Source: Bacillus sp. ISL-37
GTDB lineage: Bacteria; Bacillota; Bacilli; Bacillales; Cytobacillaceae
Assembly: GCF_018613315.1 (NCBI RefSeq)
Contig: NZ_JAGGQL010000003.1
Location: forward strand, 248,001 to 312,000
DNA length: 64,000 nucleotides
Direction of reading: 5' to 3'
Numbering within the stretch: the first letter of the stretch is position 1; each line of letters begins with the position of its first letter. Positions 11,228-31,777 of this stretch are shown piece by piece. Made by a program: the position numbers and the translations under genes. Below the pieces are notes generated by a model. The model was not told the DNA's origin. It saw only the letters and a program-made list of their open reading frames with translations, and ran no database searches.

Positions 11228-11604
11228 GGTAACCAATAGGCGGTATTGGAGCCCTAAAAGGAGCCAAACTAAAGTTATGGGTAACCAATAAGTGGTATTG
11301 GTGACCTAAAAGAGCCAAAACTAGAGTTATGGGTAACCAATAAGTGGTATTGGTGACCTAAAAGAGCCAAAACTAGGATTATAGGTCCCCAATAGGCGGT
11401 AAAGGTGGCCTAAAAGAGCCGAAACTAGGATTATAGGAAACCAATAAGTATCATTGGTGCCCTAAAACCGCCGAAACTAGAATTATAGGTAATCAATAAG
11501 CCTGATTGGTGACTTAAAAGAGTCGAAACTAGGATTATAGGTAATCAAAAAGCATCATTGGTGCCCTGAAAATCCCGAAATCAAAATTATAGGTAACCAA
11601 TAAC
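11228..11604. repeat. array B: 52-bp tandem repeat, seven full units
   Basis: Units begin at 11228, 11280, 11332, 11384, 11436, 11488, 11540 and 11592, a strict 52-bp period. A degenerate unit precedes it and overlaps the end of the VOC gene. Each unit opens with a 27-bp inverted repeat, arms GGTAACCAATA and TATTGGTGACC around a 5-base loop, followed by about 25 bp with AAAAGAGCCAAAACTAG. Some units change both arms. The 520-bp gap between genes holds nothing else that I can see. Confidence 0.92.
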
Positions 11605-11706
11605 CTGGGAGTAAATTTCATTTACCCATAAATGGTTTTTATTTCCGGGATTTACCTGTATCATCCCTGGGTAAAGAAAGATAATTCCTAAGAAGGGGTG
11701 ATAAAG

Positions 11707-11925
11707 ATGAAGACGAAAGTGAAAATATCAAAAGAAGAGCTATTTAATCAAATCCAGAATAGTGATGGGAACTTAAGAATTTCGTCTGTGTCCTCAACTG
11801 AAGAAGGGGAAGAAGTGATCGCCCTGGCTAAGCACCTTGAACTTGAAGGCAAGATCGTTTTATTGGAATACTGTTTGGATAAAAAGCCACTGGCTGTTTC
11901 CCTGAAAACAAAAAATCCTGATTAA
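11707..11925 (+). CDS. hypothetical protein, 72 aa
   Basis: A small, soluble, acidic protein beginning MKTKVKISKEELFNQI. No domain is recognised. A GTG three codons earlier (11698) is part of the RBS AGAAGGGGTG, so the ATG at 11707 is preferred. It lies between repeat array B and a terminator, apparently monocistronic. Confidence 0.5.
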   Translation: MKTKVKISKEELFNQIQNSDGNLRISSVSSTEEGEEVIALAKHLELEGKIVLLEYCLDKKPLAVSLKTKNPD

Positions 11926-11940
11926 AAATATAAATCAACT

Positions 11941-11971
11941 GGCGAGCCGCTTTTATAGTGGTTCGCCTTTT
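11941..11971 (+). terminator. terminator
   Basis: Arms GGCGAGCC and GGTTCGCC followed by TTTT, 16 bases after the stop at 11925. Confidence 0.7.
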
Positions 11972-12003
11972 GGTTTACTAGGTACTAAGAACCAAAAAAG
12001 CTA

Positions 12004-12018
12004 AGGAAACGCTTTCTT
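12004..12018. promoter_or_regulatory. possible cre (CcpA) site
   Basis: GGAAACGCTTTCT fits 12 of 14 positions of the cre consensus TGNAANCGNNWNCA; only the outer bases differ. It lies just upstream of the promoter at 12041 and could confer carbon catabolite control on the transporter/M20 operon. Confidence 0.35.
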
Positions 12019-12040
12019 TTGAAAATTCTAAAATTTACAA

Positions 12041-12069
12041 TTGACTGAATATTATATCTATATTATTAT
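12041..12069 (+). promoter_or_regulatory. sigma-A promoter of the transporter/M20 operon
   Basis: -35 TTGACT at 12041-12046, a 17-bp spacer and -10 TATTAT at 12064-12069. The leader contains a GCGAAGCGAAGCG stretch before the RBS. Confidence 0.6.
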
Positions 12070-12134
12070 CGTCCTAATACTTTTTTTCTTTCGCGAAGCG
12101 AAGCGTTTAAGTAAAAAAGAAATTGGGGGGATTC

Positions 12135-13328
12135 ATGATGTCACAGATGTTAGCTTTGGTTATTGTTGTATTCATTTTACTAGTGGGTGATTTAGTTGCT
12201 GTTAGGACGAAGGCATGGATTCCGTCAATGTTCGTTTCAGCTGTATTGTTTCTGATTGGGTACTGGACGTTCTTCCCGAAAGAAATCGTCGCACTTGCTG
12301 GTGTGCCATCAGCCGTCGCTGTCATGATGATGTACTTGTTAATAACAAATATGGGAACATTGCTTTCGATTCAGGAATTGAAAAATCAATGGAAAACCAT
12401 TGTCATTGCGTTATCAGGTATTTTAGGAATTGTCGCTGTACTATTGAGTGTCGGTACTCTCATCTTTGGATTCCAGACAATGGTTGTTGCCATACCACCT
12501 TTAGTTGGTGGAGTCGTTTCCGCCTTGATCATGTCTGAAGGAGCAAAGGAAGCAGGTCTTGCAACACTGTCGGTATTCGCGATTGTTATTTATGTCATGC
12601 AGGGTTTTGCGGGTTACCCATTAACCTCACTCGTTCTGAAAAAAGAAGGCAAGAGACTACTAAAGCAATATCGCGAGGGCAGCCTTGCAGCTAATGAAGT
12701 GGCTGCAACAGTTGAAACCGCCGCGCCACCTGTTGAATTGAAGCTTTTTAAAAACATGCCCCAAAAATATAATACCGAATTCTTTAAGTTTTTCAGGCTC
12801 TCACTGGTCGCATATCTGGCTTATTTAACTTCAACACTATTGGCACCGTTCGTCTCAGTAAGTCCATTTGTACTTGCCCTATTATTCGGTGTCATCGCCA
12901 CTAGCGTTGGTTTCCTTGAAAAACAGGCCCTGCAGAAGGCCAATGGATTTGGGATCGCGATCCTCGTCTTGATGTTATTCATTTTCGATGGATTGAAGCA
13001 GGCTACACCAGGTATGCTCCTTGAAATCATTGTTCCGCTGCTTGGTGCAATTGTCCTTGGAATCACAGGAATGTACATTTTCTCATTTATTGTCGGCAAG
13101 ATTTTAAAGGTGAGCAAAGAAATGGCCTTTGCTGTATCATTGACGGCGCTTTATGGTTTTCCTGCAGACTATATCATAACCAATGAAGTGATCAATTCTT
13201 TAACCGAGGATGAAAAAGAAAGAGAAGCCTTGACCAGCCATATGCTTCCACCAATGCTTGTGGGCGGCTTTGTGACCGTCACGATCGTATCGGTCGTGCT
13301 TGCTGGTATCTTTGTAGGATTTCTGTAA
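12135..13328 (+). CDS. multi-pass membrane transporter of unknown substrate
   Basis: 397 residues with about ten hydrophobic segments in two halves, joined by a cytoplasmic loop around residues 175-215. Glycine/proline-rich re-entrant-like stretches (AIPPLVGGVVSALIMSEGAK and LYGFPADYII) resemble GltS/YhfA-like carriers. The frame opens at TTG 12123, but GGGGGG is the RBS, so ATG 12135 (or 12138) is the start. It is followed after 17 bp by two M20 hydrolases, which suggests it imports, or exports, their substrate or product, for example an N-carbamoyl, N-acyl or ureido compound. The substrate is inferred from context only. Confidence 0.7.
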   Translation: MMSQMLALVIVVFILLVGDLVAVRTKAWIPSMFVSAVLFLIGYWTFFPKEIVALAGVPSAVAVMMMYLLITNMGTLLSIQELKNQWKTIVIALSGILGIVAVLLSVGTLIFGFQTMVVAIPPLVGGVVSALIMSEGAKEAGLATLSVFAIVIYVMQGFAGYPLTSLVLKKEGKRLLKQYREGSLAANEVAATVETAAPPVELKLFKNMPQKYNTEFFKFFRLSLVAYLAYLTSTLLAPFVSVSPFVLALLFGVIATSVGFLEKQALQKANGFGIAILVLMLFIFDGLKQATPGMLLEIIVPLLGAIVLGITGMYIFSFIVGKILKVSKEMAFAVSLTALYGFPADYIITNEVINSLTEDEKEREALTSHMLPPMLVGGFVTVTIVSVVLAGIFVGFL

Positions 13329-13345
13329 GAAAAGAGGGGATGAGA

Positions 13346-14575
13346 ATGGTAGAGTTGAAGGAACGAATTGAACAGCATATTCATCAAATCAGTGAATACA
13401 CTGCGACTCCTGGTAAAGGAACGACAAGACTGACATATAGCCAGGAGGATTTAAAGACTCGCAATTATATCAAAGGAAAAATGAGAGAGTATGGACTCGA
13501 GGTTAGAGAAGATGGATTCGGTAATATTTTTGGCAAATTGGAGGGAGCTCTGAAGGACGCACCGAGCGTGATGGTCGGGTCGCATTTTGACTCCGTCCCT
13601 CACGGCGGCTCCTATGATGGACCAGCAGGCGTTGTCGCCGCACTAGAAGTGGCAGGGCTTTTTGCTAAAAATAACCTAACGCCAAAGTATCCTCTCGAAG
13701 TTGTTGGATTGGTTGAAGAAGAAGGAGCAAGGTTTGGCGGAGGGTTAATGGGATCCCGCGGGATGGTCGGGTTACTCGGCGAGGAGGATTTTCATAACCT
13801 GAGAGATTCAAACGGTGTTTCCACAGTAGAAGCAATGACTGAAATAGGGCTTGATCCATCTCTTCCGAAAAAAAGAGATATGAAAACGATAAAGGCTTTC
13901 CTCGAGTTACATATTGAACAAGGGCCTATTTTAGAAGAAAAAAAGATTCCTATAGGAGTTGTCGAAGCAATTGTAGGACTGACTCAGCTGGAAGTGACTG
14001 TGAAAGGGCAGGCAGGACACGCAGGAACCACCCCAATGGATCGCCGCGCCGACGCACTGGTGGCGTCAGCTAATATTATCGGTCGTTTGCCAGAACTTGC
14101 TGAAGAAGAAGGGGAAGGAACGGTCATCACCACCGGTCGTTTGAATGTTTACCCGAATGGCGCCAATGTGATTCCGGATCAGGTAGTCTTTTCGGTTGAT
14201 ATTCGCTCTGGTAAGGAAGAAAACGTCTTGAGTGTCATCGAGAAAACAAAGACTCTAGTTCATTCTTATAGTAAAAATGGAATTGAAACAGCGGTAGAAC
14301 AGCTTTTATACATTCAGCCGAAAGAACTGAATCCAGGCATCCGCTCTCTTTTAAAAGAGAAAAGCGAAGCGTTGGATATTCCCTATTGTTCGATCAATAG
14401 CGGAGCAGGTCATGATGCAATGGTTTTATCCGACTATACAGTTGTAGGAATGCTATTCATTCCAAGCAAAAATGGACTTAGTCATTGTCCGGAGGAATGG
14501 TCAGATTCAGAAGACATAGCTAGAGCGGTAGAAATTTTTTACGAAACAGCCAAGAGCTTAACGGAGGCGGAATGA
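13346..14575 (+). CDS. M20 Zn-dependent amidase (carbamoylase/allantoate amidohydrolase type)
   Basis: 409 residues. The HyuC/AmaB/AllC branch of M20: GSHFDSVPHGGSYDGPAG supplies the first His and bridging Asp, EEEGARFGGGLMGSRG the catalytic Glu, ELHIEQGP a His ligand, AGTTPMDRRADAL the dimerisation/lid region, and LSHCPEEWS the last His. It should hydrolyse an N-carbamoyl-amino acid, ureido acid or related amide. ATG 13340 touches the RBS AGAGGGG; the second ATG at 13346 has proper spacing and is preferred. Its stop overlaps the next gene (ATGA), so translation is coupled. Confidence 0.85.
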   Translation: MVELKERIEQHIHQISEYTATPGKGTTRLTYSQEDLKTRNYIKGKMREYGLEVREDGFGNIFGKLEGALKDAPSVMVGSHFDSVPHGGSYDGPAGVVAALEVAGLFAKNNLTPKYPLEVVGLVEEEGARFGGGLMGSRGMVGLLGEEDFHNLRDSNGVSTVEAMTEIGLDPSLPKKRDMKTIKAFLELHIEQGPILEEKKIPIGVVEAIVGLTQLEVTVKGQAGHAGTTPMDRRADALVASANIIGRLPELAEEEGEGTVITTGRLNVYPNGANVIPDQVVFSVDIRSGKEENVLSVIEKTKTLVHSYSKNGIETAVEQLLYIQPKELNPGIRSLLKEKSEALDIPYCSINSGAGHDAMVLSDYTVVGMLFIPSKNGLSHCPEEWSDSEDIARAVEIFYETAKSLTEAE

Positions 14576-15750
14576 TGATAAACGATAGATTAAAAGAAGC
14601 TATTAAGGAATACAAAGACGAATTAACAGAGTTGCGCAGGAAGCTTCACAGTGAGCCTGAAGTTTCATGGGAAGAATATAGAACCACAGATTTCGTTTGT
14701 GAATACCTGGACCAATTAGGAGTTTCTTATAGAAGAACCGAACCAACCGGTGTCATTGCTGAAATCAAGGGTGGTAAGTCTGGCAAAACCGTCGCTTTAA
14801 GAGGGGATATGGATGCACTTTCTGTCGAAGAACTAAACAAGGACCTGCCTTATTCTTCAAACGAAGATGGAAAAATGCATGCATGCGGACATGATGCGCA
14901 CACTTCAATGCTGATGGTCGCATCAAAGGCGTTGAATGAAATCAAGGATGAGCTGCCAGGAAATGTCCGTCTATTGTTCCAGCCTGCCGAAGAGGTAGCA
15001 GAAGGGGCCAAAGCTCTGGTAAAACAGGGTGCAGTCGAAGGAGTCGATAACGTTTTTGGCATCCACATTTGGTCGCAGATGCCGACTCATAAGGTGAGTT
15101 GCACACCGGGGCCATCCTTTGCTTCGGCTGATTTATTCAAGGTCACTTTCAAAGGAAGAGGCGGACATGGAGCGATTCCGCAGGATTGTATTGATACCGC
15201 AATCGTTGCCTCATCCTTTGTCATGAACGTCCAATCCGTCGTGTCGAGAACAATCGATCCGCAGCAGGGAGCAGTTCTCACAGTTGGAAAAATGGTAGTA
15301 GGCACACGCTTTAATGTCATTGCCGAAAATGCAGTAATCGAAGGAACAGTACGCTGCTTCGACCCGGCAACACGTGACCACATCGAAGCGCAGCTAACAC
15401 ATTATGCTGAAAATGTAGCGGCTTTATATGGCGCTACGGCAAAAGTAGAATACACGCGAGGGACACAGGCAGTCATCAATGACGAGGAAAGTGCGTTGCT
15501 TGTTCAACAGGTCGCATCTGAGTCTTTCGGTGAGGATGTCATCTATCATGAAAAGCCAACGATGGGAGGGGAAGACTTCAGTTTCTATCTTGACGAGGTT
15601 CCAGGCAGTTTTGCCCTCGTCGGTAGTGGGAATCCCGATAAAGATACAGAATGGGCTCACCATCATGGCAAATTCAATATTGATGAAGACGCGTTGGCAA
15701 CTGGAGCAGAACTTTATGCACAGTATGCCTGGGCTTTTTTGAACAAATAA
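14572..15750 (+). CDS. M20D amidohydrolase (N-acyl-amino acid hydrolase type)
   Basis: 392 residues. Peptidase family M20D, as in hippurate and N-acetyl-amino-acid hydrolases: LRRKLHSEPEVSWEE at the start, GDMDAL, HACGHDAH with a metal Cys-Gly-His-Asp, FQPAEE with the catalytic Glu, GIHIWSQ, and GGEDFSFY near the end. RBS CGGAGGCGG lies inside the previous gene and the start overlaps its stop by four bases. With the carbamoylase and transporter it forms a three-gene operon ending at a strong terminator; together they would free amino acids from N-substituted forms. Confidence 0.87.
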   Translation: MMINDRLKEAIKEYKDELTELRRKLHSEPEVSWEEYRTTDFVCEYLDQLGVSYRRTEPTGVIAEIKGGKSGKTVALRGDMDALSVEELNKDLPYSSNEDGKMHACGHDAHTSMLMVASKALNEIKDELPGNVRLLFQPAEEVAEGAKALVKQGAVEGVDNVFGIHIWSQMPTHKVSCTPGPSFASADLFKVTFKGRGGHGAIPQDCIDTAIVASSFVMNVQSVVSRTIDPQQGAVLTVGKMVVGTRFNVIAENAVIEGTVRCFDPATRDHIEAQLTHYAENVAALYGATAKVEYTRGTQAVINDEESALLVQQVASESFGEDVIYHEKPTMGGEDFSFYLDEVPGSFALVGSGNPDKDTEWAHHHGKFNIDEDALATGAELYAQYAWAFLNK

Positions 15751-15755
15751 TAAAA

Positions 15756-15785
15756 AATGGAGAACCCCCGCGTGGTTCTCCATTT
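15756..15785. terminator. bidirectional terminator
   Basis: Arms AATGGAGAACC and GGTTCTCCATT with A6 on the left and T-rich sequence on the right; serves the M20 operon and the convergent small gene. Confidence 0.8.
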
Positions 15786-15789
15786 CTTA

Positions 15790-16008
15790 TTACCTTTTCT
15801 TCTTTTTGGCAGGGTCGGCCGCTACGCCAGGTTTCGCTTTCGCTTCCAAGGCAACTTGTACATGGTATGTTTTCTCATCGATTTCCGTCACACTCGAAAC
15901 CTTAGCTTTACGACCCTTGATTTTCAAATCCTCCCCAACCTCGGGCACACGCTTAAGCAACTGATTCAGCATTTCATTTTTCTGCTCATAAAAATGGACA
16001 ACAAACAC
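15790..16008 (-). CDS. small basic hypothetical protein, GTG start
   Basis: About 72 residues, strongly basic at the C-terminus (PAKKKKR), with an OB-like or small beta-rich central pattern. A further in-frame GTG at 16017 lies inside the RBS AAAGGTGA; the GTG at 16008 has the right spacing and gives MFVVHFYEQ. No family recognised. It points away from repeat array C and ends at the shared terminator. Confidence 0.45.
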   Translation of the reverse strand: MFVVHFYEQKNEMLNQLLKRVPEVGEDLKIKGRKAKVSSVTEIDEKTYHVQVALEAKAKPGVAADPAKKKKR

Positions 16009-16152
16009 TTCAATCACCTTTTTCTAGAGTATTGGCTTTCCTATCACTAAGATATTGACGGGATACTAGGTTTAGAACTAATTAATAGAAGGAATTTTAG
16101 TAGGGTTGATTTATTGAGGAGCGGGGAAGAATTTGTAGTGAGGAAATGAGGA

Positions 16153-16738
16153 AGTGTCTAATGAGAAATGAATTTAGACAGCTTAAGGCTTAGTAGTGAA
16201 AAGCTGTCAAGAAAAGGCTGGAATCGTGACAGGTTCGGGGCCACCAGGCGAAAAGCTGTCAAGAAAAGGCCAGAATCGTGACAGGTTCGGGGCCACCAGG
16301 CGAAAAGCTGTCAAGAAAAGGACGGAATCGTGACAGGTTCACGGCCACAAAGTGAAAAGCTGTCAAGAAGAGGCTGGAATTGTGACAGGTTCACGGCCAC
16401 ATAGTGAAAAGCTGTCAAGAAAGGGCTGGAATTGTGACAGGTTCACCGCCACCAGGCGAAAAGCTGTCAAGAAAAAGCCGGAATCGTGACAGGTTCACCG
16501 CCACCAGGCGAAAAGCTGTCAAGAAAAAGCCGGAATCGTGACAGGTTCACCGCCATAAAGCGAAAAGCTGTCAAGAAAAGGCTGGAATCGTGACAGGTTC
16601 AGGGCTACAAGGCGAAAAGCTGTCAAGAAAAAGCCGGAATCGTGACAGGTTCGGGGCCACCAGGCGAAAAGCTGTCAAGAAAAATCCGGAATTGTGACAG
16701 GTTCACCGCCACAAAGCGAAAAGCTGTCAAAAAAAAAT
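16153..16738. repeat. array C: 52-bp tandem repeat, ten full units
   Basis: AGCTGTC recurs at 16202 and then every 52 bp without exception up to 16722. Each unit has inverted arms CTGTCA and TGACAG spanning 29 bp, followed by a variable GC-rich half (GTTC, then GGGGCCACC, ACGGCCACA or ACCGCCACC) and GCGAAAAG. The last unit is cut after its first arm. A decayed leader unit at 16155-16180 keeps the same plan with other arms, TGTCTAA and TTAGACA. It occupies most of the 800-bp gap between divergent genes; 16009-16150 shows nothing recognisable. Confidence 0.93.
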
Positions 16739-16760
16739 CACGCCAGCTCGTTCGGTCTAG

Positions 16761-18251
<1,491 letters not shown>

Positions 18252-18261
18252 AAGACTTTTA

Positions 18262-18295
18262 AAGGGCTGCCAGCTATGTTGGTAGCTCTTTTTTA
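18262..18295 (+). terminator. terminator after GH1
   Basis: Arms GGGCTGCC and GGTAGCTC (two wobble pairs) with T6. Confidence 0.7.
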
Positions 18296-18383
18296 TAGAA
18301 GAAAGTCCTTAGCAATAAAAGGAAAAATGAATCTTTTGTCGAATAATATCTCGTTATACACTTAACATACAGGAGGAAATCTT

Positions 18384-18944: not shown

Positions 18945-18952
18945 GGATAAAT

Positions 18953-19483: not shown

Positions 19484-19501
19484 AAAGGAAGTGTTAGTTG
19501 A

Positions 19502-23150: not shown

Positions 23151-23153
23151 ATG

Positions 23154-23185: not shown

Positions 23186-23254
23186 TAAGTAAATATAAAA
23201 TCAATCTAGCTCGAATGCTTAGCCTTACAGTCCCTAACTCTTTTTGCCTTTAAA

Positions 23255-23460: not shown

Positions 23461-23530
23461 ATCAATCACCTCTTACTTAAAATATCCATAGATAGCTTCA
23501 GGTATGTATGGAGGTTGTTGTGGGGGAATC

Positions 23531-23566
23531 AAAAAAGCGAACCAAGGTAATCATGATTCGCTTTTT
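23531..23566. terminator. terminator of the interrupted phosphodiesterase gene
   Basis: Arms AAAAGCGAA and TTCGCTTTT around a 15-nt loop, T runs on both strands, just after the stop at 23571. Confidence 0.7.
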
Positions 23567-23570
23567 ATAA

Positions 23571-25511
23571 TTATTTAGTTAGATTTTTTATTCTTTTACC
23601 CTCTACATAATTGGGAATTTGCAGCCCAAGTAATTCATAAATAGTTGGTGCTATATCGAGATTGGTGATTGGCTCTATCTGTTTTCCACGGGGGATGTCA
23701 GGTCCCATTGCCACGAATACGGCTCTCAGTTGCTCGCGATTCGGATTCCCGCCATGTGTACCTAACTCGGATGTTGGTTTTACAATATGGGATTCACCCT
23801 GGCCCATTATATAACCAGGAGCAGCCATCAATAAAAGATCCCCGGCATTTTGCTCCTTTGATTTTTTGTTTTGGGATATTTTTTTAATATCCTGGTAGGG
23901 GTGGACATCGGCGTTAACGAGATAACCAAATAAATCTTTTGTATTTTCTTTTACACCGGTAAATGAGAAATTCACGGTGCTGTTCCATATCTCTTTCAGC
24001 TGGTGCCTGATGACAGGACCGTTTTCATTCCTGTTCACCTTAATCCCTTTGAAGGCCTGGATAATGTCATTCCTGACATGTTCATAATCTTCCTCTGGAA
24101 CGATTCCATGCTTTTCTCTCGATTTCAGGTTGATGTATACATGTGCTGCCGAACCGCTTGGAATTGCAATCGCTTTTGATTTCTTATAATCAATCTTTCC
24201 GTCGGAATCTAATACAAGAAGCCCATTGTCCTTGAGAACCTTATTGGGCTCTAGTGCTGAATGCGCCGGTTCCATGCCGTGGTCGGAAACTATGAAGAGA
24301 TGATCGTTCCCGTCTAATGATTCAACGGTCTTGCCGACGACACTGTCTGCAACTTTATAGGACCATTTTATATAATCCATGTACTTTTCCGTTTTTTCAG
24401 GTGTATAGTCAGGCTGCCTAGGGTCTGTCAACAAGTACTAATGCTCCTGAAGGTCAATTTGCGGTGCGTAGAACATTAGCAAATCCGGCTGGTATTCTTT
24501 TTTGATAAAAAGGGATACATCTGTTACCCAGTTTACGAACCTCTCCGAAACTTCCTCGTATTCTTTCCTGGAAATCCAGCCTTTTTCAAGGGCGATGTCA
24601 TCATCCTGAGGCGGGAAAAAACCAAATTGGTCCCTGATTCGTTCAGGAAATCCTTCTGGCCCATCAATTAAACCTGACGTCACTGCTGAACGGTACATGA
24701 CAGCTTCCTTACCCAATGCTGGGTCAGTTGAAGTGAAGTTGAACCAAAAACCTGCTGTCTGGTCTTCTTTTACCTGAAGCGTGACGGATCCCCAATCTTT
24801 TGGACTAACTCCTTTTTTATCAATCTTTTTATTGTCAGAGACGATAAATTTGTCGTAATTCTTCGTCTCATCGTTGCTTGAATCGTACGCAAGCACATGG
24901 ATTTCTTTGTTTTTACTATCCTCGACCTTAATCTTGAAGGAGGTTTCCATCAATGGACTGAAGCTTGTCGGAGTGTTGCTCCAGCCTGATGCTTCTGTAA
25001 ATTTGAGCTTTTCCTGATTACTGGGGGACAGAGTATCTCCATAGTAAATCGTATAGTCCGCCTGCTTACCAGTGGAAGGATTCGCCCCGGCAAATGCAAC
25101 CGTAGCTGTAGTTTTTCCTTGCTTCCTGGCTTCGACCCAGAGTGGGTCTACCTCAAATTCACTTAAAAAGGCATTTTTCTGCTTTGTAAGAGCTGCATCT
25201 TTCTGCTGCCAGGCATTGCTGACAATGGTTGTTTTAAGCGGTGTTGCACCGGTCGCTATAGCAGCGTGTGACGGAGCAGTAAGGGACGGGCTTACTGTTC
25301 TGGCGTATTTGGCGATAGTTCCTTTTTCGATTACATTCTTTATATTAGGCAGTTTGCCGTCTTTTACATAACTCCGGGTGAGATCATTGCGCATGCCGTC
25401 AAAAGAAATAAGAATTACCTGGCGGTCGCTTGCTGCTTCTGCCATAGTCACGTTGATGGATGAAAAAGTGATAAATAATAGAATAATTACTTTTAAAAAT
25501 CTAGTTGTCAT
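23571..25511 (-). pseudogene. secreted alkaline-phosphatase-family phosphodiesterase, interrupted by an amber codon
   Basis: One reading frame of 647 codons broken only by TAG at 24438-24440 (codon 358). The N-terminus has a signal peptide (KVIILLFITFSSINVTMAEA) after ATG 25511 with RBS TAGGAG. The first part carries ISFDGMRNDL and the nucleophile region PSLTAPSHAAIATG; the stop falls right after IDLQEH, which supplies an Asp and a His ligand. The second part, in the same frame, continues YLLTDPRQPDY and has VSDHGMEP and GTHGG with the remaining metal ligands. Without readthrough the product cannot bind both metals. CAG to TAG is the simplest change. It could also be a sequencing error. Confidence 0.8.
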
Positions 25512-25680
25512 AGAATCTCCTACTTCGATGTTATACAGGGATTTACCTATTTTTAAGGGGTTTAAAACTTTTTGAAAATTAGCTATACAACCGCCAGGCA
25601 AAAACGGGAACCGTGCTCGATAAAATCTGCATATATTCATGATATAAATTTTTTATAAAATAGGGAGGGATAGATGTAGT

Positions 25681-26238
25681 ATGAAACTAAAAAATAGATT
25701 TATAATGGTATTTTTAGCGATTAGCACCGCATTATTTTTAACTGCTTGCTCTGGTGAAGAAGAAAAATCAAGCACTGAAGACCACAACAGCCATGCAAAT
25801 ATGGAGCATTCGGGATCGGGAGAATTACCACAAGGTCTGCAGGAAGCATCAGACCCAACATACAAAGTTGGCAGCAAGGCAATCATCACGGACGACCACA
25901 TGACAGGAATGGTTGGAGCAGAAGCGGAGATCGTAGGAGCATATGAGACTGTCGTCTATTCGTTATCCTATGACCCTACCAATGGTGGAGACCGAGTAGA
26001 ACAGCATAAATGGGTCATCCATGAAGAACTGCTTGATGTCGGTGACGAACCATTAAAGCCAGGGGATGAAGCCACGATCAATACCGATCATATGGAAGGA
26101 ATGAAAGGAGCAAAAGCGGTTATTGACTCAGCTGAAAAAATGACAGTATATATGGTCGATTTCACGCCAACAGATGGCTCTGAAAAAGTGACGAACCATC
26201 AGTGGGTAACCGAAGACGAACTTTCTCCCGCTAAATAA
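25681..26238 (+). CDS. ydhK: YdhK-family lipoprotein (DUF1541 repeats)
   Basis: 185 residues. Signal peptide with lipobox LTAC (Cys22 acylated). A histidine/methionine-rich stretch (DHNSHANMEHSGSG) follows, then two DUF1541-type repeats of about 60 residues, each with a DHMxGMxGAxA motif (TDDHMTGMVGAEAEI and NTDHMEGMKGAKAVI) and ending in HKWVIHEEL or HQWVTEDEL. The His/Met content suggests copper or other metal binding at the cell surface, an inference. Related proteins occur next to copper or stress genes in Bacillus and staphylococci. Confidence 0.85.
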   Translation: MKLKNRFIMVFLAISTALFLTACSGEEEKSSTEDHNSHANMEHSGSGELPQGLQEASDPTYKVGSKAIITDDHMTGMVGAEAEIVGAYETVVYSLSYDPTNGGDRVEQHKWVIHEELLDVGDEPLKPGDEATINTDHMEGMKGAKAVIDSAEKMTVYMVDFTPTDGSEKVTNHQWVTEDELSPAK

Positions 26239-26263
26239 TATCGAGATTGCCAAAATCATGCAG

Positions 26264-26289
26264 GATTGTCCCTCATATCGTCTGGGTAT
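26264..26289 (+). promoter_or_regulatory. possible sigma-B promoter
   Basis: GGGTAT at 26284 with GATTGT 14 bp upstream; the -10 is identical in context (GGGTATATAAG) to the candidate at 50027. It would drive the 37-aa gene. Confidence 0.3.
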
Positions 26290-26320
26290 ATAAGTACTAA
26301 GACATGAGGAGGGATGACAC

Positions 26321-26434
26321 ATGAAAAAATTAATCAGAACGGCGCTTAAATGGGGACCAGTTCTATATCCGATTGTGAAGAAAATGTTGAATAACAAAAA
26401 AACATCCTCGATTAAAACTAGCTATTCAAAATAA
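26321..26434 (+). CDS. 37-aa basic peptide
   Basis: Short gene with a strong RBS (GAGGAGGGA) and a strong terminator after it. The product starts MKKLIRTALKWGPVLYPIVK and is positively charged with an amphipathic helix, so it may associate with the membrane. No annotated family is recognised. The nearby GGGTATATAAG element suggests general-stress control. Confidence 0.55.
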   Translation: MKKLIRTALKWGPVLYPIVKKMLNNKKTSSIKTSYSK

Positions 26435-26444
26435 ATGTCCTACC

Positions 26445-26487
26445 GACCGCACAGGAGTCATAAGGTGGCTGCTGTGCGGTCTTTTTC
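26445..26487 (+). terminator. terminator
   Basis: Arms GACCGCACAG and CTGTGCGGTC with T5. Confidence 0.8.
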
Positions 26488-26647
26488 TATTTATGCCAAA
26501 TGACCGAACCGTGAACTGGTAGGAGGATTGCCACTTTGGTAAATAATCTTTATATTTCAGACTATTGTTCATGTTATAATGGTAAAATGAATCATAAACT
26601 ATGTACATAAAGTTGGCTTGCATGGGTCTAGTAAAAGGAAGGTATCT

Positions 26648-27814
26648 ATGGGCGAGGAAAATATAACGAGAATTGAAATGAATGGCAAGGAATACATATT
26701 GATTGGAACTGCACATGTCTCAAAGCACAGTGCGGAGCAGGTAAAGGAAGTAATTGAAGCTGAGAGGCCTGATTCTGTCTGCGTCGAATTGGACGAGCAG
26801 CGCTACAAGACAATTTCCGAGGGTTCAAAGTGGCAGGAGATGGATATCATCCAGGTTATCAAAGAAAAACGGGCTTCATTATTACTGATGAATCTCGCTA
26901 TTTCGTCTTTCCAAAATCGAATGGCGAAGGAACTTGGTATTAAAGCAGGCCAGGAAATGATCCAGGGAATTGAATCTGCGAAAGAAGTAGGGGCTAAACT
27001 TGTGCTTGCAGATCGAAATATCCAGATTACTTTTTCAAGGATTTGGGGAAATCTTGGCTTGAAAGGAAAGGCCATTTTGCTCAGCCAGATCATAACGAGT
27101 ATCTTCAGCCGGGACAGCATCTCGGAGGAAGAACTGGAAAAGCTGAAGGAACAGGATACGATCAACGCAATGCTGAATGAATTCACTGAAACATTCCCAC
27201 GGTTGAAAAAGCCATTGATTGACGAGCGGGACCAATACTTAGCTCAGAAAATCAAGGAAGCACCTGGAGATAAAATTGTCGCTGTCCTGGGGGCTGCACA
27301 CGTACCGGGAATTAAAGAAGAGATTAAAAAAGATCATGATTTGAAAAAATTAAGAGCAATTCCGCCGAAATCCAATTGGCCAAAATACATTGGCTGGGGC
27401 ATACCTGTATTGATTCTGGCTATTATCGTCTATACTTTTTTGGCTAATCCATCTGCGGGTTTTGCCCAAACAGTCAGCTGGATTTTATGGAACGGAAGCC
27501 TTTCCGCCTTGGGAGCTGCGATCGCAATGGGGCATCCACTGACCATTTTGACAGCATTTATAGCGGCACCGATCACTTCCTTAAATCCTTTGCTTGCGGC
27601 AGGCTGGTTTGCCGGTTTGACACAGGCCTATATCCGCAGGCCAAGTGTAAAGGACTTTGAGAGCCTATCTGAAGATGTTTTTAGTTTTAAAGGATTTTGG
27701 CGAAACAAAGTCAGTCGTGTACTGCTGATCGTCGTACTTGCCAATCTGGGAAGTTCACTTGGAACTTTCATAGGCGGCGCTGATGTCATCAGGGTCTTTA
27801 TCGAGAATTTATAA
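26648..27814 (+). CDS. TraB/PrgY family membrane protein
   Basis: 388 residues. The N-terminal 235 residues form the TraB domain: LIGTAHVSKHS near the start with the conserved GxxH, VCVELDEQRY with the Glu, and VLGAAHVPGI with a second GxxH; these match the metal-dependent hydrolase-like fold proposed for TraB. The C-terminal part has about four membrane segments (from about residue 250). Enterococcal relatives reduce pheromone activity, but the role in Bacillaceae is unknown. The frame opens at 26618; AAGGAAGG places the start at ATG 26648. Confidence 0.82.
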   Translation: MGEENITRIEMNGKEYILIGTAHVSKHSAEQVKEVIEAERPDSVCVELDEQRYKTISEGSKWQEMDIIQVIKEKRASLLLMNLAISSFQNRMAKELGIKAGQEMIQGIESAKEVGAKLVLADRNIQITFSRIWGNLGLKGKAILLSQIITSIFSRDSISEEELEKLKEQDTINAMLNEFTETFPRLKKPLIDERDQYLAQKIKEAPGDKIVAVLGAAHVPGIKEEIKKDHDLKKLRAIPPKSNWPKYIGWGIPVLILAIIVYTFLANPSAGFAQTVSWILWNGSLSALGAAIAMGHPLTILTAFIAAPITSLNPLLAAGWFAGLTQAYIRRPSVKDFESLSEDVFSFKGFWRNKVSRVLLIVVLANLGSSLGTFIGGADVIRVFIENL

Positions 27815-27818
27815 GGAC

Positions 27819-27853
27819 TAGAACGAAATCTACATGGTTTCGTTCTTTTTTTA
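27819..27853 (+). terminator. terminator after TraB gene
   Basis: Arms AGAACGAAATC and GGTTTCGTTCT with T7. Confidence 0.8.
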
Positions 27854-27953
27854 TAAAAAGTCTGCAATTCAAAGAAGAAACCTGACGAAAAAAGAGGATT
27901 TATGTTACATAAAATGGAATAAGAAAAGGAAAAGATTTTACAGGAGTGATATT

Positions 27954-28160
27954 TTGAACGTCTTAAAACCTGCCATGTCGATTTCGATCTTAATTCATTT
28001 TCTATACATACTAGGAATTCTGTTTTTTGCTAACTATAACAACATTGCTTTTCCTCAAGCTGAAATCCCGATCTTTCTGCTGTTTTCAACTTTCGTTTTT
28101 GCGGCAATTATTGGCTTGATCCTCTGTGCAATTAACAGCAATACGAATTTGAAAAGCTAG
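27954..28160 (+). CDS. small two-TM membrane protein, TTG start
   Basis: 68 residues with two membrane segments (ISILIHFLYILGILFF and FLLFSTFVFAAIIGLILC). The frame opens at 27834 inside the previous terminator; the RBS ACAGGAGTG sits before TTG 27954, which gives (M)NVLKPAMS, so I start there. Unknown function. Confidence 0.55.
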   Translation: MNVLKPAMSISILIHFLYILGILFFANYNNIAFPQAEIPIFLLFSTFVFAAIIGLILCAINSNTNLKS

Positions 28161-28243
28161 AGTGATTCCTTTTTGAGTCAAAAAAAATCATCCTCAATGG
28201 CAGGATGACAAGAAGATGAATGTACAACCGTAAGGCGGAATAT

Positions 28244-28339
28244 CTATTTCGCCTTTGTTTTTGTATTCTTTTGAAACTCAGACTGACGCTTTGCATCCTT
28301 TTTAAAAGCTTCCATTGCCTTGCTGTACAACAAACTCAC
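28244..28339 (-). CDS. 31-aa basic peptide
   Basis: GTG start with a strong RBS (GGGAGGTG). The product starts MSLLYSKAMEAFKKDAKRQS and is rich in Lys and Gln; no membrane segment. The stop lies inside a hairpin (AAGGCGAAA / CCGCCTT) that may terminate transcription. It is too short for family assignment. Confidence 0.5.
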   Translation of the reverse strand: MSLLYSKAMEAFKKDAKRQSEFQKNTKTKAK

Positions 28340-28471
28340 CTTCAGCACCTCCCATATCATTCTTATTACGTTCCTTCCCCGTGTATACTAATCTAAAACT
28401 TAAATTTGAAAAAGAGATTTGGTATTATGTTCCTTCTGGACAGAGAGTTAAGAAATCCTGAGTAAAGAAGA

Positions 28472-28498
28472 AAAGACGCCCGAGTAATGGGGCGTCTT
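28472..28498 (-). terminator. terminator of the 51-aa minus-strand gene
   Basis: Minus-strand arms AAGACGCCC and GGGCGTCTT followed by TTCTTCTTT. Confidence 0.75.
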
Positions 28499-28502
28499 CC
28501 TG

Positions 28503-28658
28503 TTACTTTTTATTCACTTGTTTACCGCTTTTTTTCTGGCTCTGCGATTTTGAATTCCCGACCTGGAACTCGGCGCCAAGCTCAATATCATTTCTTTTAT
28601 CATGTTTCTCTGTTTGTTCTCTTGTTTGATCCCTGTTGTGCATACCTTGTCTCGCCAT
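28503..28658 (-). CDS. 51-aa polar protein
   Basis: A polar, Gln/Lys/Asp-rich product starting MARQGMHNRDQTREQTEKHD, probably disordered, of a type common among spore or stress proteins in Bacillus. The terminator right after the stop supports a real gene on this strand. The start is uncertain: the frame stays open and protein-like for 13 more codons upstream (GHLGKPKESELNE) without a standard start, and the RBS for ATG 28658 is weak. Confidence 0.45.
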   Translation of the reverse strand: MARQGMHNRDQTREQTEKHDKRNDIELGAEFQVGNSKSQSQKKSGKQVNKK

Positions 28659-28724
28659 TTCATTCAGCTCACTTTCCTTGGGTTTACCTAAATGGCCTTA
28701 TTATTATGTTCATTTATTATTTAA

Positions 28725-29204
28725 TTATTGATGGGTACTATCTGATTGCCCCCGAATGACTTTGTCATAAAATACCTGAAATCCATATAGAACTAAGGTT
28801 TTGATTAAGAATACTATAGATAACTGGAATTTTGTTAATCGGACCAATGAAACATAGCCAAATTTCTTGAAGATGTCCAGACCGTAATAAGTAAACAGTG
28901 AGTCAATCAGGATATTGACCAGCAAATACAGATTGAATTTTTTATATGTGTACTTCATGATCCAGAAGGAACCAATAAAAAACGGACCCCAGATTAAAGG
29001 CAGTTCACCCAATACGTTTGGTTTAATTTTAAAGGGAAACCACCACCATTTTCTCTTTTCAGCTAACCTTCCTTCAAAGATTAAATAAATGGCCATGAAT
29101 AACGTACCTGGCAAGAACTTTCTGAATGTTTGTCTACCAAGGAGAGGCAGCGATAGCCAGGGCAGGACAGCCATTAAAAATATGTAAAGTTTTAGATTTT
29201 TCAT
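28725..29204 (-). CDS. multi-pass membrane protein
   Basis: 159 residues with four or five hydrophobic segments, the first LYIFLMAVLPWLSLPLLG. No family recognised; EKRKWWWFPFKIKPNVLGELP between segments is distinctive. The RBS AAAAGGTG overlaps an in-frame GTG at 29213, so ATG 29204 is preferred. Confidence 0.55.
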   Translation of the reverse strand: MKNLKLYIFLMAVLPWLSLPLLGRQTFRKFLPGTLFMAIYLIFEGRLAEKRKWWWFPFKIKPNVLGELPLIWGPFFIGSFWIMKYTYKKFNLYLLVNILIDSLFTYYGLDIFKKFGYVSLVRLTKFQLSIVFLIKTLVLYGFQVFYDKVIRGQSDSTHQ

Positions 29205-29344
29205 GAGCAACACCTTTTGGGAGAGAATAGGGATTGTTTTTCTTAGTATCTCTAATCATGCTAAAAGTATTAAAAGTTTCCTGAGGTCATCATTTCTTTC
29301 GCTCTTGAACAGTAAGTATAAGTAGGTAAAGGAGGGGGAGTGAG

Positions 29345-30157
29345 ATGATTTCTCTTTGGGATGAACATTCATTTTGGCTGGAAATGCTTCAGGATCACGC
29401 CTATTTTGTCCGGGATGGTTTGTCAGTGAGTGAAAAGGAGTACGTAAAAATCGCCCAGCAATTCATTGGTTTATATGATGACCTTTTAGCTAATTTGCAG
29501 TCAATACCTCGGCAAGCTGGCCACCAGGACGGTCAAATGATCGATTTTTCAAGAAAAGTTTGGAAGGTTGCTAAAAACTATTATGATTTTGAAGGTACAC
29601 TGCAATCATTGAGGATAGATAACAAAGTAAACCTGAGCCTGTCCCCAACATATTTAAACGGTACCCTGAGTGAAAACCAGGAATATTTACGGATATTGAG
29701 CTATCTAGTACAGGGGCAGGAACCAGTACGGTTGTCAGCGACCCAGGTTATGGACCTCTGGCTTGAAGATCAACTCGGTCACGCTGTGCTTTTTGAAAAT
29801 CTGCTTGACCCGATTGAAGTAGGAGCCAACACAGCAGCGCAAGAATTCAAACGGAGATTCCAGCTATTTATTGTCCAAAATCATCATTTGAAAAATTATT
29901 TACGGGTAAAACAGCCAGGCTTTGCCCGCCAGCAGGAATTCATTTATGAAGTAGGAAAGACGACACTGGAAATGAATCAGTTCATTAAAAATATGGTCGA
30001 GAAGTACAAAGAAGATACGATTTTGAATAAGACCAACCTCCGCTTCCTAGAGCATCACTTTCCAGAAACATGCTACTTCCTCGCTAATTTAAGTTACTAT
30101 GAACCTAGGTTGCAGGCTTTAGTAGGAAATTGCTCTTTGTCTAAGCCATCTTTTTAG
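29345..30157 (+). CDS. DUF2935 protein
   Basis: 270 residues, an all-helical protein of the DUF2935 family: SLWDEHSFWLEMLQDHAYFV opens the first four-helix unit, and VMDLWLEDQLGHAVLFENLL opens the second about 135 residues later. Conserved His and Glu in both units (WxxEHxFWxxxxxDH and EDQLGHA) suggest a di-metal ferritin-like site, inferred. Function unknown. RBS GGAGGGGG. Ends at a bidirectional terminator. Confidence 0.75.
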   Translation: MISLWDEHSFWLEMLQDHAYFVRDGLSVSEKEYVKIAQQFIGLYDDLLANLQSIPRQAGHQDGQMIDFSRKVWKVAKNYYDFEGTLQSLRIDNKVNLSLSPTYLNGTLSENQEYLRILSYLVQGQEPVRLSATQVMDLWLEDQLGHAVLFENLLDPIEVGANTAAQEFKRRFQLFIVQNHHLKNYLRVKQPGFARQQEFIYEVGKTTLEMNQFIKNMVEKYKEDTILNKTNLRFLEHHFPETCYFLANLSYYEPRLQALVGNCSLSKPSF

Positions 30158-30175
30158 TAAAAAAATAATTGATTA

Positions 30176-30206
30176 AAACAACGGGCAGTAACCCGTTGTT
30201 TTTTAC
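30176..30206. terminator. bidirectional terminator
   Basis: Arms AACAACGGG and CCCGTTGTT with T6; lies between convergent DUF2935 and tenA. Confidence 0.8.
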
Positions 30207-30216
30207 ATATCAATTT

Positions 30217-30888
30217 TTAGAGTATAACAGGCCATTTTTCTTGATTGTAGGCCATGTCCCAGAACAAGAATTCATACTGGCTGCTGATAATAAAATGCTG
30301 TTTCATTTTTTCTTGTTCCGATTTTGGCGCCTCCGATGCAAGCTCATTTAGTCTGCTTAATTGCTCATTTACCAATTCACTGAACCATTCTCCGCCATAT
30401 GCATTAATCCATTCTTGATAAATTTGAACATTTGGAGTGGATTCCTTTAGCAATTGTCCAATTTCATAATAAATCCAGTAGCACGGCAGGATCGCTGCGA
30501 TGATTTCAGCGAGGCTTCCAGAAGCAGCGACCCGATAAAGATGTGATGTATAAGCATAGGCAGTGGGAGATGGGACGAACTCTTTTAATTCTTGTTTTGT
30601 TACTCTCAATTGCTTTAGGAAATTTTCGTGCAGACCAAGCTCAGCCTCATAAGTCCCCATCGAATGAGCTGCCATTCTGGAAGTCGTGAACAAATCGGAT
30701 GCTCTCGCCGCTCCAATTGCCTGTATCCTGGCAAAATGGGAAAGATAATAGGAATCCTGTAAAACATAATAGCGAAAGGACTCCAATGCTAAATTTCCAT
30801 TAGCGATTCCCTTAATAAAAGGGTGGTCAAAATTCGCCTGCCAAATTGGCTCAGCCTGGTGTCTTAATACTTCAGTGAATTTTGTCAT
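30217..30888 (-). CDS. tenA: TenA, aminopyrimidine aminohydrolase (thiaminase II)
   Basis: 223 residues, the typical TenA length. It salvages thiamine by hydrolysing aminomethyl-pyrimidine breakdown products to HMP. Features: FIKGIANGNLALESFRYYV, the active-site Cys in ILPCYWIYYEIG (about residue 135), and EYLFWDMAY-like end (QYEFLFWDMAYNQEKWP) with the C-terminal Glu. A TPP riboswitch and terminator lie in the leader, so it is repressed by thiamine pyrophosphate. It is alone, not in the usual thi operon. RBS GAGGAGGAGC. Confidence 0.93.
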   Translation of the reverse strand: MTKFTEVLRHQAEPIWQANFDHPFIKGIANGNLALESFRYYVLQDSYYLSHFARIQAIGAARASDLFTTSRMAAHSMGTYEAELGLHENFLKQLRVTKQELKEFVPSPTAYAYTSHLYRVAASGSLAEIIAAILPCYWIYYEIGQLLKESTPNVQIYQEWINAYGGEWFSELVNEQLSRLNELASEAPKSEQEKMKQHFIISSQYEFLFWDMAYNQEKWPVIL

Positions 30889-30920
30889 TTAAAAGCTCCT
30901 CCTCATCCTTTTTAACCCAA

Positions 30921-30950
30921 TAAAAAAACCACTTTCATAGAAAGTGGTTG
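30921..30950 (-). terminator. tenA: riboswitch expression-platform terminator
   Basis: Minus-strand arms AACCACTTTC and GAAAGTGGTT with T7. The left arm can also pair with GAAAGTGG at the 3' end of the TPP aptamer, which gives a direct antiterminator switch. Confidence 0.85.
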
Positions 30951-30977
30951 TATTGGCACAATAAAAAATGTCCCAAA

Positions 30978-31075
30978 GTCCACTTTCCTACGCTGGTGTA
31001 AACCAGATCAGGTTCCAAGGGTCTCAAAGTCTCACTTTAATCTCAGCCTTTAAATCAAAGGCACCCCTAGTGGTA
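30978..31075 (-). ncRNA. TPP riboswitch (THI element)
   Basis: The minus strand carries the conserved elements in order: ACCACTAGGGGTGCC, GGCTGAGA, GACCCTTGGAACCTGATCTG, and ACCAGCGTAGGAAAGTGG. P1 forms between the two ends. It is followed by the terminator at 30921-30950 and then tenA; TPP binding should favour termination. Confidence 0.95.
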
Positions 31076-31252
31076 AAATTTAGATATTTATTTTCATCTT
31101 TAATCATAATAGCATGGCTGATGTAAGAGTCAAGCAAATAGTGGGTTAGTAAATTGTGAAAAAGTTTGGTGCTAATTGTGAACATTATGTGACATTTTTT
31201 ATTAAATTCTGTTAATATAAAAAATACATACGAAAAAGTGGGGGAATGAGAA

Positions 31253-31468
31253 GTGGGAAAACTTCTTATGTACTTTTATTTAATTGTTGGTCTATATTGT
31301 CTTGTAAGCGGATTCCTGGCATTGTTATCACATGGATTCCAGCACGCTGTACTTTCACTGTTCCTTGCGGCATTTAATTTCGCGATGTTTTCTTTATTCC
31401 GCAAAGAAGGTAAGCTACCCCGTTTACGTTTGATCAAAGGACGTAAACGCGAGATGGCAAAAATTTAA
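31253..31468 (+). CDS. small two-TM membrane protein, GTG start
   Basis: 71 residues: two membrane segments (LLMYFYLIVGLYCLVSGFLA and AVLSLFLAAFNFAMFSLF) then a basic tail (KLPRLRLIKGRKREMAK). GTG start 31253 with GGGGGAATGAG upstream. No family recognised. The gene runs into repeat array D without a visible terminator. Confidence 0.55.
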   Translation: MGKLLMYFYLIVGLYCLVSGFLALLSHGFQHAVLSLFLAAFNFAMFSLFRKEGKLPRLRLIKGRKREMAKI

Positions 31469-31517
31469 TTCTGTTGTATAGGCAATCGAGGTATTTTTTC
31501 AAAACCATAATACCATC

Positions 31518-31777
31518 GGATAAAATCCCGACCGTACAAGCGGAAATTGTCTGAAGTAGGGTCAGGTTCGGACAAAGTCCCGACCGTACAAGCGGAAATT
31601 GTCTGAAGTAGGGTCAGGTTCGGACAAAGTCCCGACCGATTAAGCGCAATCTGTCCGAAGTAGGGTCAGGTTCGGACAAAATCTCGACTGTACAAGCGGA
31701 AGTTGTCCGAAGTAGGGTTAGGTTCGGACAACATTTCGGCTCACCAAGCCAAAGTTGTCTAAAACAGCATCAATCAT
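31518..31777. repeat. array D: 52-bp tandem repeat, five units
   Basis: Units start (GGACAAA/GGATAAA) at 31518, 31570, 31622, 31674 and 31726, again exactly 52 bp apart. Each contains arms TTGTCCGA and TCGGACAA spanning 29 bp with AGTAGGGTCAGGT between, then AGTCCCGACCGTACAAGCGG. In two units one arm is TTGTCTGA, which still pairs through a G-U. The last unit is degenerate. The array fills the 370-bp gap between convergent genes. Confidence 0.92.

Follow-up and report, generated by a model that had tools for sequence, protein, structure and literature searches.

Intergenic 52-bp tandem arrays of a Mesobacillus genome mostly share a 27-bp dyad, show helically phased A/T content over whole units and may serve as DNA platforms

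The window analysed here, a stretch of 64,000 nucleotides from a genome that is a Mesobacillus, contains three intergenic tandem arrays, B, C and D (Table 1). The first-pass annotation had described them as exact 52-bp tandem arrays, which was confirmed both by TRF, with 0% indels in all three, and by self-matching, with a best lag of 52 for each. Besides, the consensus unit of each array carries a base-centred dyad of 27 bp, i.e., GGTAACCAATAAGTGGTATTGGTGACC in B (9/10 arm pairs), TGTCAAGAAAAGGCCGGAATCGTGACA in C (7/10) and TGTCCGAAGTAGGGTCAGGTTCGGACA in D (8/10), so that the dyad plan ascribed to all three also holds. TGTC and GACA do fall at equal offsets in C and D, and B carries a GG..CC version. 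The unit is thus formed by a 27-bp base-centred dyad and a 25-bp spacer, the dyad consisting of two arms of ~10 bp round a centre of ~7 bp, with TGTC/GACA or GG..CC at its tips. The family pattern of array C, GCTGTC..GACAGGTT, matches its own genome 187 times, and the family of array D, TGTCCGAA..TTCGGACA, has 69 DNA matches there (D itself counted) at 66-100% identity. Array D is flanked by qoxD and a convergent small gene, and is followed by a degenerate half unit, recognized by eye, up to ~31765. No ORF of at least 90 aa overlaps array B, and such an overlap is absent from 29 of the 35 listed arrays of the own genome, B, C and D included.

Table 1. Positions of the three arrays, an example dyad of each, and qoxD in the window
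Feature	Position	Strand	Description
Array B	11224..11603	+	TRF period 52, 7.3 copies, 81% match, 0% indels; GG..CC core class
Array B, example 27-bp dyad	11280..11306		GGTAACCAATAAGTGGTATTGGTGACC; from sequence
Array C	16198..16735	+	TRF period 52, 10.3 copies, 90% match, 0% indels; TGTC..GACA class
Array C, example 27-bp dyad	16205..16231		TGTC-N19-GACA; chain start 16205
Array D	31516..31731	+	TRF period 52, 4.2 copies, 88% match, 0% indels
Array D, example 27-bp dyad	31548..31574		TGTCTGAAGTAGGGTCAGGTTCGGACA; from sequence
qoxD	31838..32137	-	TIGR02901

The wider occurrence of this plan was followed in 824 kb of the own genome (contigs C33, C55 and C62), a sample that is not fully blind because these contigs were among those named by an earlier search. 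The dyad test (a G at -12 with a C at +12, and 7/10 arm pairs or more) was passed by 29 of its 33 arrays, against 0.6 expected from shuffled units, while the remaining four have 5 or 6 arm pairs. The three arrays had been taken to be unrelated in sequence; instead, they are variants of one plan, and we place B, C and D in a single superfamily of intergenic DNA arrays. The dyad does not extend to every array, p being >0.05 for 16 of 51 from the own genome and its relatives. The exact 27/52 geometry, searched as TGTC-N19-GACA-N25-TGTC-N19-GACA, was present in 98 of 151 genomes of the family, and the backward-pattern control gave 0 matches in the same 151 genomes except for one in each of two. 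The same unit length and core span were found in 17 of 25 genera. The core pattern has 506 matches in the own genome, and the strict pattern gave no match in 53 of the 151 family genomes, including the congener G100, which shows the arrays to be dispensable. Sharp array ends at a half-site, hinted by B, C and D, were dropped as a feature, as edges are degenerate in the wider sample.

A check on the spread of periods, suggested by the first-pass annotation, was run on the 58 arrays of the 824-kb sample that reach 2.5 copies and a period of 10. Periods were 51-53 or 104 bp in 33 arrays and 20-21 bp in 16, with nine scattered; the objection of a broad spread fails because the periods cluster at these sizes. 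Several non-coding families of one size thus occur in one genome (the former 33 arrays in 824 kb), and B, C and D, with a unit length within 51-53 and no fewer than 4 copies each, fall in a 52-nt constant-size class. The belief that no such element had been described did not survive, since Subirana and Messeguer (2021; PMC8161180) report Bacillus arrays with variable sequence whose size is fixed at either 52 or 20-21 nt, in species including selenatarsenatis, boroniphilus and subterraneus, i.e., the group of the present genome. As reported there, those repeats share with ours the period, the several families per genome, the mostly 4-10 copies, and short characteristic sequences occurring with their reverse within the repeat, a role taken in our arrays by the TGTC/GACA or GG/CC dyad tips. 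According to the same article, the sequences are not conserved and each species has its own, whereas the present arrays show a 27-bp core with TGTC/GACA tips common to several genera. Compared with the portion of that article considered here, the cross-genus core, the covariation, the 10.4-bp phasing and the polarity are new; helical turns or palindromes may figure in the authors' J. Bacteriol. 2020 paper.

For the analysis of arm pairing, arrays were grouped at 75% identity and a single member of each group was retained, leaving 51 representatives out of 96 arrays. Arm covariation reached z 11.2 in register, compared with -3.1 to 3.7 in slid registers, and 18 of the 19 two-sided arm changes between the closest arrays restored pairing. 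The exchange of arms that still pair is therefore substantiated, covariation exceeding both the arm-swap and the slid-register controls. Because the pairing is base-specific, the arms would at some stage also come together in a hairpin, either as a cruciform or on the lagging-strand template, and this stage could be functional or a by-product of a symmetry-keeping mutational process.

Over whole units, A/T content varies with a period of 10.4 bp, which supports the proposal that 52 bp corresponds to five helical turns. Harmonic 5 (10.4 bp) was the strongest harmonic in all four unit sets, for which only consensus units measuring exactly 52 bp were used, i.e., own-genome units (n = 26, z 8.1), units of relatives (n = 12, z 7.1), anchored representatives (n = 51, z 10.2, and 8.0 with the anchor columns blanked) and units without TGTC/GACA (n = 14, z 5.6), with z 1.9 in a control of 400 random genomic 52-mers. 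Floating-mean fits of whole units also peak at 10.4 bp, and the 20-22 bp arrays (n = 28) show a periodicity of 10.5 bp (z 5.0). Phase coherence among the representatives was 0.95, a common phase to which shared descent can contribute. Part of the sharp 10.4-bp peak in whole-array periodograms stems from the 52-bp period acting as a comb, and the argument thus rests on the single-unit harmonics. Against it, spacers taken alone as 25-mers are better fitted by ~8 bp than by 10.4 bp (z 6.6 vs 0.9), a DFT on isolated 25-bp spacers gave z 1.1 at 10.4 bp, and the inner 21 spacer bases gave z 3.2 at 10.4 bp and z 3.7 at 9-9.5 bp. Changes in the spacers of close arrays preserved the A/T-vs-G/C class in 59 of 149 cases at peaks and 82 of 248 at troughs, with no clear difference.

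Array orientation follows replication better than transcription. In the single-contig genome G121, arrays of one polar family occupy one strand between 62 kb and 2.20 Mb and the other strand between 2.76 and 4.54 Mb (9 and 5 arrays, with zero exceptions). Orientation agreed in sign with the local GC skew in 19 of 20 polar-family arrays read with their flanks, a set comprising 14/14 arrays of G121 and 6/15 of G003, the exception of the latter included. Four of these 20 arrays oppose both flanking genes, and three of the four still match the skew. One array (L241) runs against the skew-linked polarity, and leading-strand base bias may contribute to the polarity. Regarding gene context, divergent gaps hold 3/35 arrays in the own genome and 4/46 in relatives vs 80/388 own-genome gaps, and convergent gaps hold 7/35 and 18/46 vs 70/388, where the background covers own-genome gaps of at least 100 bp by mechanical ORF calls missing small genes, and the relatives are represented by 50 arrays minus 4 without a flanking gene on one side. 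The slot 3' of qoxD is occupied by one or more exact TGTC-N19-GACA dyads in 12 of 21 genomes of the genus, its content ranging from 1 exact dyad up to an array of ~19 copies; among the nine dyad-free slots, that of L220 ends at a contig edge, and the convergent neighbour was located in three of the nine.

The mirror-symmetric core, length, helix fit and replication direction that are largely conserved despite variable letters point to a role at the DNA level. We give about even chances to the arrays being helix-phased, BIME-like platforms for a protein that binds or wraps double-stranded DNA. The double helix would set the unit length through A/T-rich steps placed on average each 10.4 bp, five per unit, so that dyads, and likewise A/T steps, would share one face from one unit to the next, and a two-fold symmetric protein would land on or wrap the repeated dyads in double-stranded DNA. 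Such platforms would rarely lie between divergent genes and would be oriented with replication. By analogy, DNA gyrase is the leading candidate for the bound protein and for a topological role, a nucleoid protein being the alternative, and the arrays could be the counterpart of the BIME-2 palindromes of E. coli, which are described as strong gyrase sites, the E. coli gyrase motif of ~130 bp having flanks with a periodic GC% of 10.75 bp (PMC6379681). The array period of 10.4 bp differs from this published 10.75, in a comparison where the periods accessible to a 52-bp array are limited to harmonics of 52. As presented in PMC6379681 and PMC3733652, BIME/REP elements resemble our arrays in being intergenic palindromes in repeated arrangements, and the 27-bp dyad lies within the 20-40 bp of REP/BIME palindromes; our arrays differ in keeping an exact head-to-tail 52-bp period and in lacking the unpaired GTAG/CGTC tag that PMC3733652 gives for REP, their tips being paired TGTC/GACA or GG/CC. 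What the platform reading does not require is the base-specific arm covariation, which wrapping of double-stranded DNA can do without.

The main rival is a neutral or selfish satellite without host function, in which hairpins on the lagging-strand template lead to slippage and template switching that expand the array, homogenize its units and repair the arms into palindromes. Joint arm changes restoring pairing in 18/19 cases, the variable content of one orthologous slot (1 dyad to ~19 copies), an orientation linked to replication as fits a fork-linked process, degenerate units at the array edges and the absence of the core pattern from the congener G100 are all in line with it. We nevertheless consider it doubtful, as it leaves unexplained both the constant unit length and core span in 17/25 genera and the helix-phased A/T content over the whole unit; moreover, the hairpin nuclease subunit SbcD scored above the cut-off in 21/21 genomes checked (10 pattern-rich and 11 pattern-free), by which nuclease loss as the cause was rejected. 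Transcription of the arrays into a tandem hairpin RNA, acting as a small RNA, as a sponge or at the 3' end of an mRNA, is an RNA role also considered by Subirana and Messeguer and is still less likely in our view. It would account for the base-specific covariation and the slight excess of G-T over A-C mismatches (15 vs 9 among representatives, 6.3 vs 2.7 array-weighted, 36 vs 26 within arrays), four stretches fold with z -1.9 to -2.9, and B. coagulans is reported to transcribe 52-nt arrays (PMC8625621). However, the G-T excess is small, with 47 of 71 representative mismatches being neither G-T nor A-C, a clean one-unit hairpin was obtained in four folds for array B alone, C and D pairing across units, replication predicts polarity better than transcription, and helical phasing would be superfluous. 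The arrays are also without an Rfam match, the two matches in the window to Rfam 15 at gathering score being cspA and TPP. Of the structure proposed to be under selection in DNA or RNA, we thus retain the DNA side, on the five turns and the phasing, and find little for the RNA side. Five or more T among the 8 bases that follow the dyad were counted in 13/51 units on the pyrimidine-rich strand (8.5 expected) and in 0/51 on the other strand (0.5 expected), and a bank of intrinsic terminators was rejected too.

Constant tips, variable symmetric arms and many dispersed loci could also suggest palindromic repeats that are mobile and owe their spread to a transposase or a site-specific recombinase, as for REP/RAYT, and two 10-bp arms round a 7-bp centre resemble the core sites of tyrosine recombinases. 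We regard this as highly improbable. Y1_Tnp (PF01797) has 0 matches in the own genome despite the 506 core-pattern matches, and occurs in the other 9 pattern-rich and in 9/11 pattern-free genomes checked; the family therefore does not track the arrays, so that a RAYT/Y1 transposase was rejected as the spreader. Array ends are not sharp, and the pattern was found in 19 of 2.9 million viral contigs, at a single place each, taken as chance level with total bases unspecified; phage carriage was accordingly rejected. Iterons of plasmid origins are direct repeats with whole-helical-turn spacing and cooperative protein binding, whereas our arrays are chromosomal, with many dispersed loci, locus-specific sequence and a dyad core. 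The constant repeats and unique spacers of CRISPR are not seen here, as the repetition, at 81-90%, extends over the entire 52-bp unit.

Ever since their first description, 52-nt arrays have posed an open puzzle, with a constant length without explained function; phasing, covariation and polarity favour a DNA-level, fork-linked role. If true, the platform reading would imply bacterial selection on DNA shape and spacing despite sequence turnover. As a tentative extension, the arrays might be a helix-ruled chromatin element of bacteria, with a symmetric wrapping machine reading shape and spacing, not sequence, and the 52-bp spacing, 27-bp dyad and fork direction would be kept while letters turn over. 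The arrays of 20-21 bp that these genomes also contain could then be a two-turn version of the same code; 20-21 nt was noted as two helical turns in PMC8161180.

The first-pass annotation had claimed three arrays with a 52-bp period (B, C and D), and all three are present as claimed. Self-match lag scoring gave 52 as the best lag in each of them, and no ORF of at least 90 aa lies over B, C or D. The genome (4.74 Mb in 62 contigs) is taken to be a Mesobacillus because its QoxB shares 98% identity with the QoxB proteins of M. selenatarsenatis SF-1 and Bacillus sp. ISL-41.

Features of the window (contig C33, 248001-312000), in window positions
Feature	Position	Strand	Description	Source
Array B	11224-11603		period 52, 7.3 copies, 0% indels	TRF
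Array C	16198-16735		period 52, 10.3 copies, 0% indels	TRF
Array D	31516-31731		period 52, 4.2 copies, 0% indels	TRF
20-21 bp array	7558-7773			TRF
20-21 bp array	52119-52171			TRF
20-21 bp array	54031-54135			TRF
TPP riboswitch	30968-31078	minus	above gathering score	Rfam
cspA thermoregulator RNA element	43077-43443	minus	above gathering score	Rfam

The first-pass annotation knew of no described element like these arrays, yet 52-nt constant-size Bacillus repeats have been published. That survey (Subirana and Messeguer, PMC8161180) covered 176 Bacillus genomes and counted 4029 tandem repeats, of which 1886 have units of 51-53 nt and 781 have units of 20-21 nt, constant in size and variable in sequence; its Table 1 gives B. 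selenatarsenatis many families, common to boroniphilus and subterraneus. In a later paper (PMC8625621), transcription of 52-nt arrays was found in B. coagulans. Our census of arrays with at least 2.5 copies covered 824 kb of the genome (C33:1-240000, the window, C55:1-440000 and C62:1-80000), a sample not fully blind because the contigs came from those already matching array D. Rather than a broad spread of periods, the 58 arrays comprise 33 with a unit of 51-53 or 104 bp, 16 with a unit of 20-21 bp and nine others, in line with that survey. The 52-bp arrays are a real feature, of an already known but unexplained kind; no earlier description of their plan, which combines a covarying dyad of 27 bp, a ruler of five turns and polarity with replication, was found in the parts of the literature searched. 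Words such as CTGGTATTA are common to a few of the genome's 20-21 bp arrays. Matches to array D start within 40 bases of the beginning of contigs C4, C12, C25, C54 and C59, so the assembly seems to be interrupted by arrays, and draft genomes may undercount them.

The sequences of B, C and D, previously described as unrelated, share with most other 52-bp arrays sampled in the genome a 27-bp core with two tip types, which makes them variants of one plan. The core (G and C at -12 and +12, respectively, and 7 or more of 10 arm pairs) was found in 29/33 sampled own-genome arrays, with 0.6 expected, and the remaining four have 5 or 6 arm pairs. The tips are TGTC/GACA or of GG..CC type, with neither in one weak case (C55:28010). 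When arrays of relatives are included, the consensus unit has its best dyad centred on a base in 46/51 arrays, and the dyad exceeds shuffled units at p 0.05 in 35; the 16 without a significant dyad (e.g., L028, L031 and L073) count against its being universal.

The arms were also said to be exchanged while still pairing, and this is borne out. Among 51 representatives of 96 TGTC-anchored arrays (<75% identical over the inner 19 positions), the Watson-Crick share at arm pairs 5-10 was 0.67, 0.65, 0.80, 0.80, 0.69 and 0.47, against 0.41, 0.30, 0.36, 0.46, 0.33 and 0.29 after arm swap, with up to four pair types at one position; pairs 11-13 showed no clear excess over this control. Combined, pairs 5-10 gave z 11.2 in register and -3.1 to 3.7 in eight slid registers, the swap control ignoring relatedness. 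Between closest arrays (38 disjoint pairs, compared both ways), pairing was restored in 18 of 19 two-sided changes, compared with 20 of 40 in six slid registers; one-sided changes numbered 56. Inner pairs of the same class (A/T or G/C) were complementary at 0.82 versus 0.61 after arm swap. The covariation is base-specific, so the arms either come together as a duplex at some point or are copied from each other. Pairing at the level of RNA has little support: G-T mismatches slightly exceed A-C ones (15 vs 9 among representatives, 36 vs 26 within arrays), but most representative mismatches are neither.

The suggestion that 52 bp amounts to about five helical turns agrees with the A/T content of the units, in which the fifth of 26 harmonics (10.4 bp) is the strongest, with z 8.1 in 26 own-genome units and 7.1 in 12 units of relatives. 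Among the 51 representatives it reached z 10.2, or 8.0 once the anchors were blanked, with a phase coherence of 0.95; in 14 units without TGTC/GACA it reached 5.6, versus 1.9 in 400 random genomic 52-mers. Common descent can contribute to the shared phase. Free-mean fits to whole units peak at 10.4 and fade by 9.5 and 11.5. Core and spacer both add to the signal, as power fell from 2.41 to 1.12 with the core shuffled, 1.44 with the spacer shuffled and 1.02 with all shuffled. Against a helix ruler, the core alone fits best at 11 bp (z 4.8; 4.7 at 10.4) and the 25-bp spacer alone at 8 bp (z 6.6; a poor 0.9 at 10.4); the inner 21 spacer bases give z 3.7 at 9-9.5 bp and 3.2 at 10.4. The A/T class at spacer peaks showed no clear conservation between close arrays. 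Arrays of 20-22 bp (n=28, own genome and relatives) are phased at 10.5 bp (z 5.0).

In 29/33 own-genome arrays, purines are enriched on the leading strand, as judged from the GC skew of the contig and the strand of the genes. In the single-contig genome G121, the 14 arrays of the polar family AAAGCTGTCAAGAA-N13-TGACAGGTTT occupy one strand between 62 kb and 2.20 Mb and the opposite strand between 2.76 and 4.54 Mb, with no exceptions. Of the 15 arrays of this family in genome G003, those at 176, 374, 1388 and 1589 kb, like those at 4.64 and 4.69 Mb, are on the plus strand, and those between 2.58 and 4.38 Mb are on the minus strand; the array at 1188 kb is the one exception. Flanks were read for 20 arrays (14/14 of G121 and 6/15 of G003, including its exception), and 19 of these agree in sign with the local GC skew, among them three of the four that oppose both adjoining genes; replication is thus a better guide to orientation than transcription. 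A general compositional bias between the strands may contribute to this.

Based on sequence anatomy, the arrays fit a platform on double-stranded DNA, lying along one helix face, which a symmetric protein would bind or wrap. By analogy, DNA gyrase would be the most specific precedent for such a reader: PMC6379681 describes periodic GC% in the E. coli gyrase motif and gyrase cutting of BIME-2 palindromes. The main rival is a satellite maintained at the replication fork, where hairpins would promote slippage and template switching; this accounts for polarity, arm covariation and copy-number turnover, but leaves unexplained the helical phasing and the fixed 27/52 geometry across genera. Presence of the hairpin nuclease subunit SbcD, found in 21/21 genomes checked, does not track array load. 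RAYT-type mobility is unlikely because the genome has no Y1 transposase.

By mechanical gene calls, convergent gaps hold 7/35 own arrays and 18/46 in relatives (background 70/388 own-genome gaps), and divergent gaps hold few arrays, 3/35 and 4/46 (background 80/388). The slot downstream of qoxD, where array D lies, carries at least one exact dyad in 12/21 genus genomes, with TRF arrays of up to about 19 copies, and none in nine; of these nine, three have a short slot, measured at 81-142 bp, and in L220 the slot is truncated at the end of a contig.

A strict pattern of 16 fixed bases (TGTC-N19-GACA-N25-TGTC-N19-GACA), which leaves out other core variants and is expected about 0.001 times per genome by an arithmetic estimate, has 506 matches in the genome. 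The pattern occurs in 98/151 genomes and 17/25 genera of the family, where the backward-read control had no match, or one in two genomes; 16/21 genus genomes have more than 100 matches. The congener G100 (a draft rated 100% complete) has no strict-pattern match, making it a case for comparing what accompanies the arrays. In a class-wide sample the pattern is rare, occurring in 8/398 genomes; six of the eight lie outside the family, and two of those six have just one match. In addition, 19 viral contigs carry it in one place each. The 27/52 core was also seen beyond the family in Ammoniphilus sp. YIM 78166 (L041) and genomes G287, G298 and G319, where it may have been either inherited or transferred.
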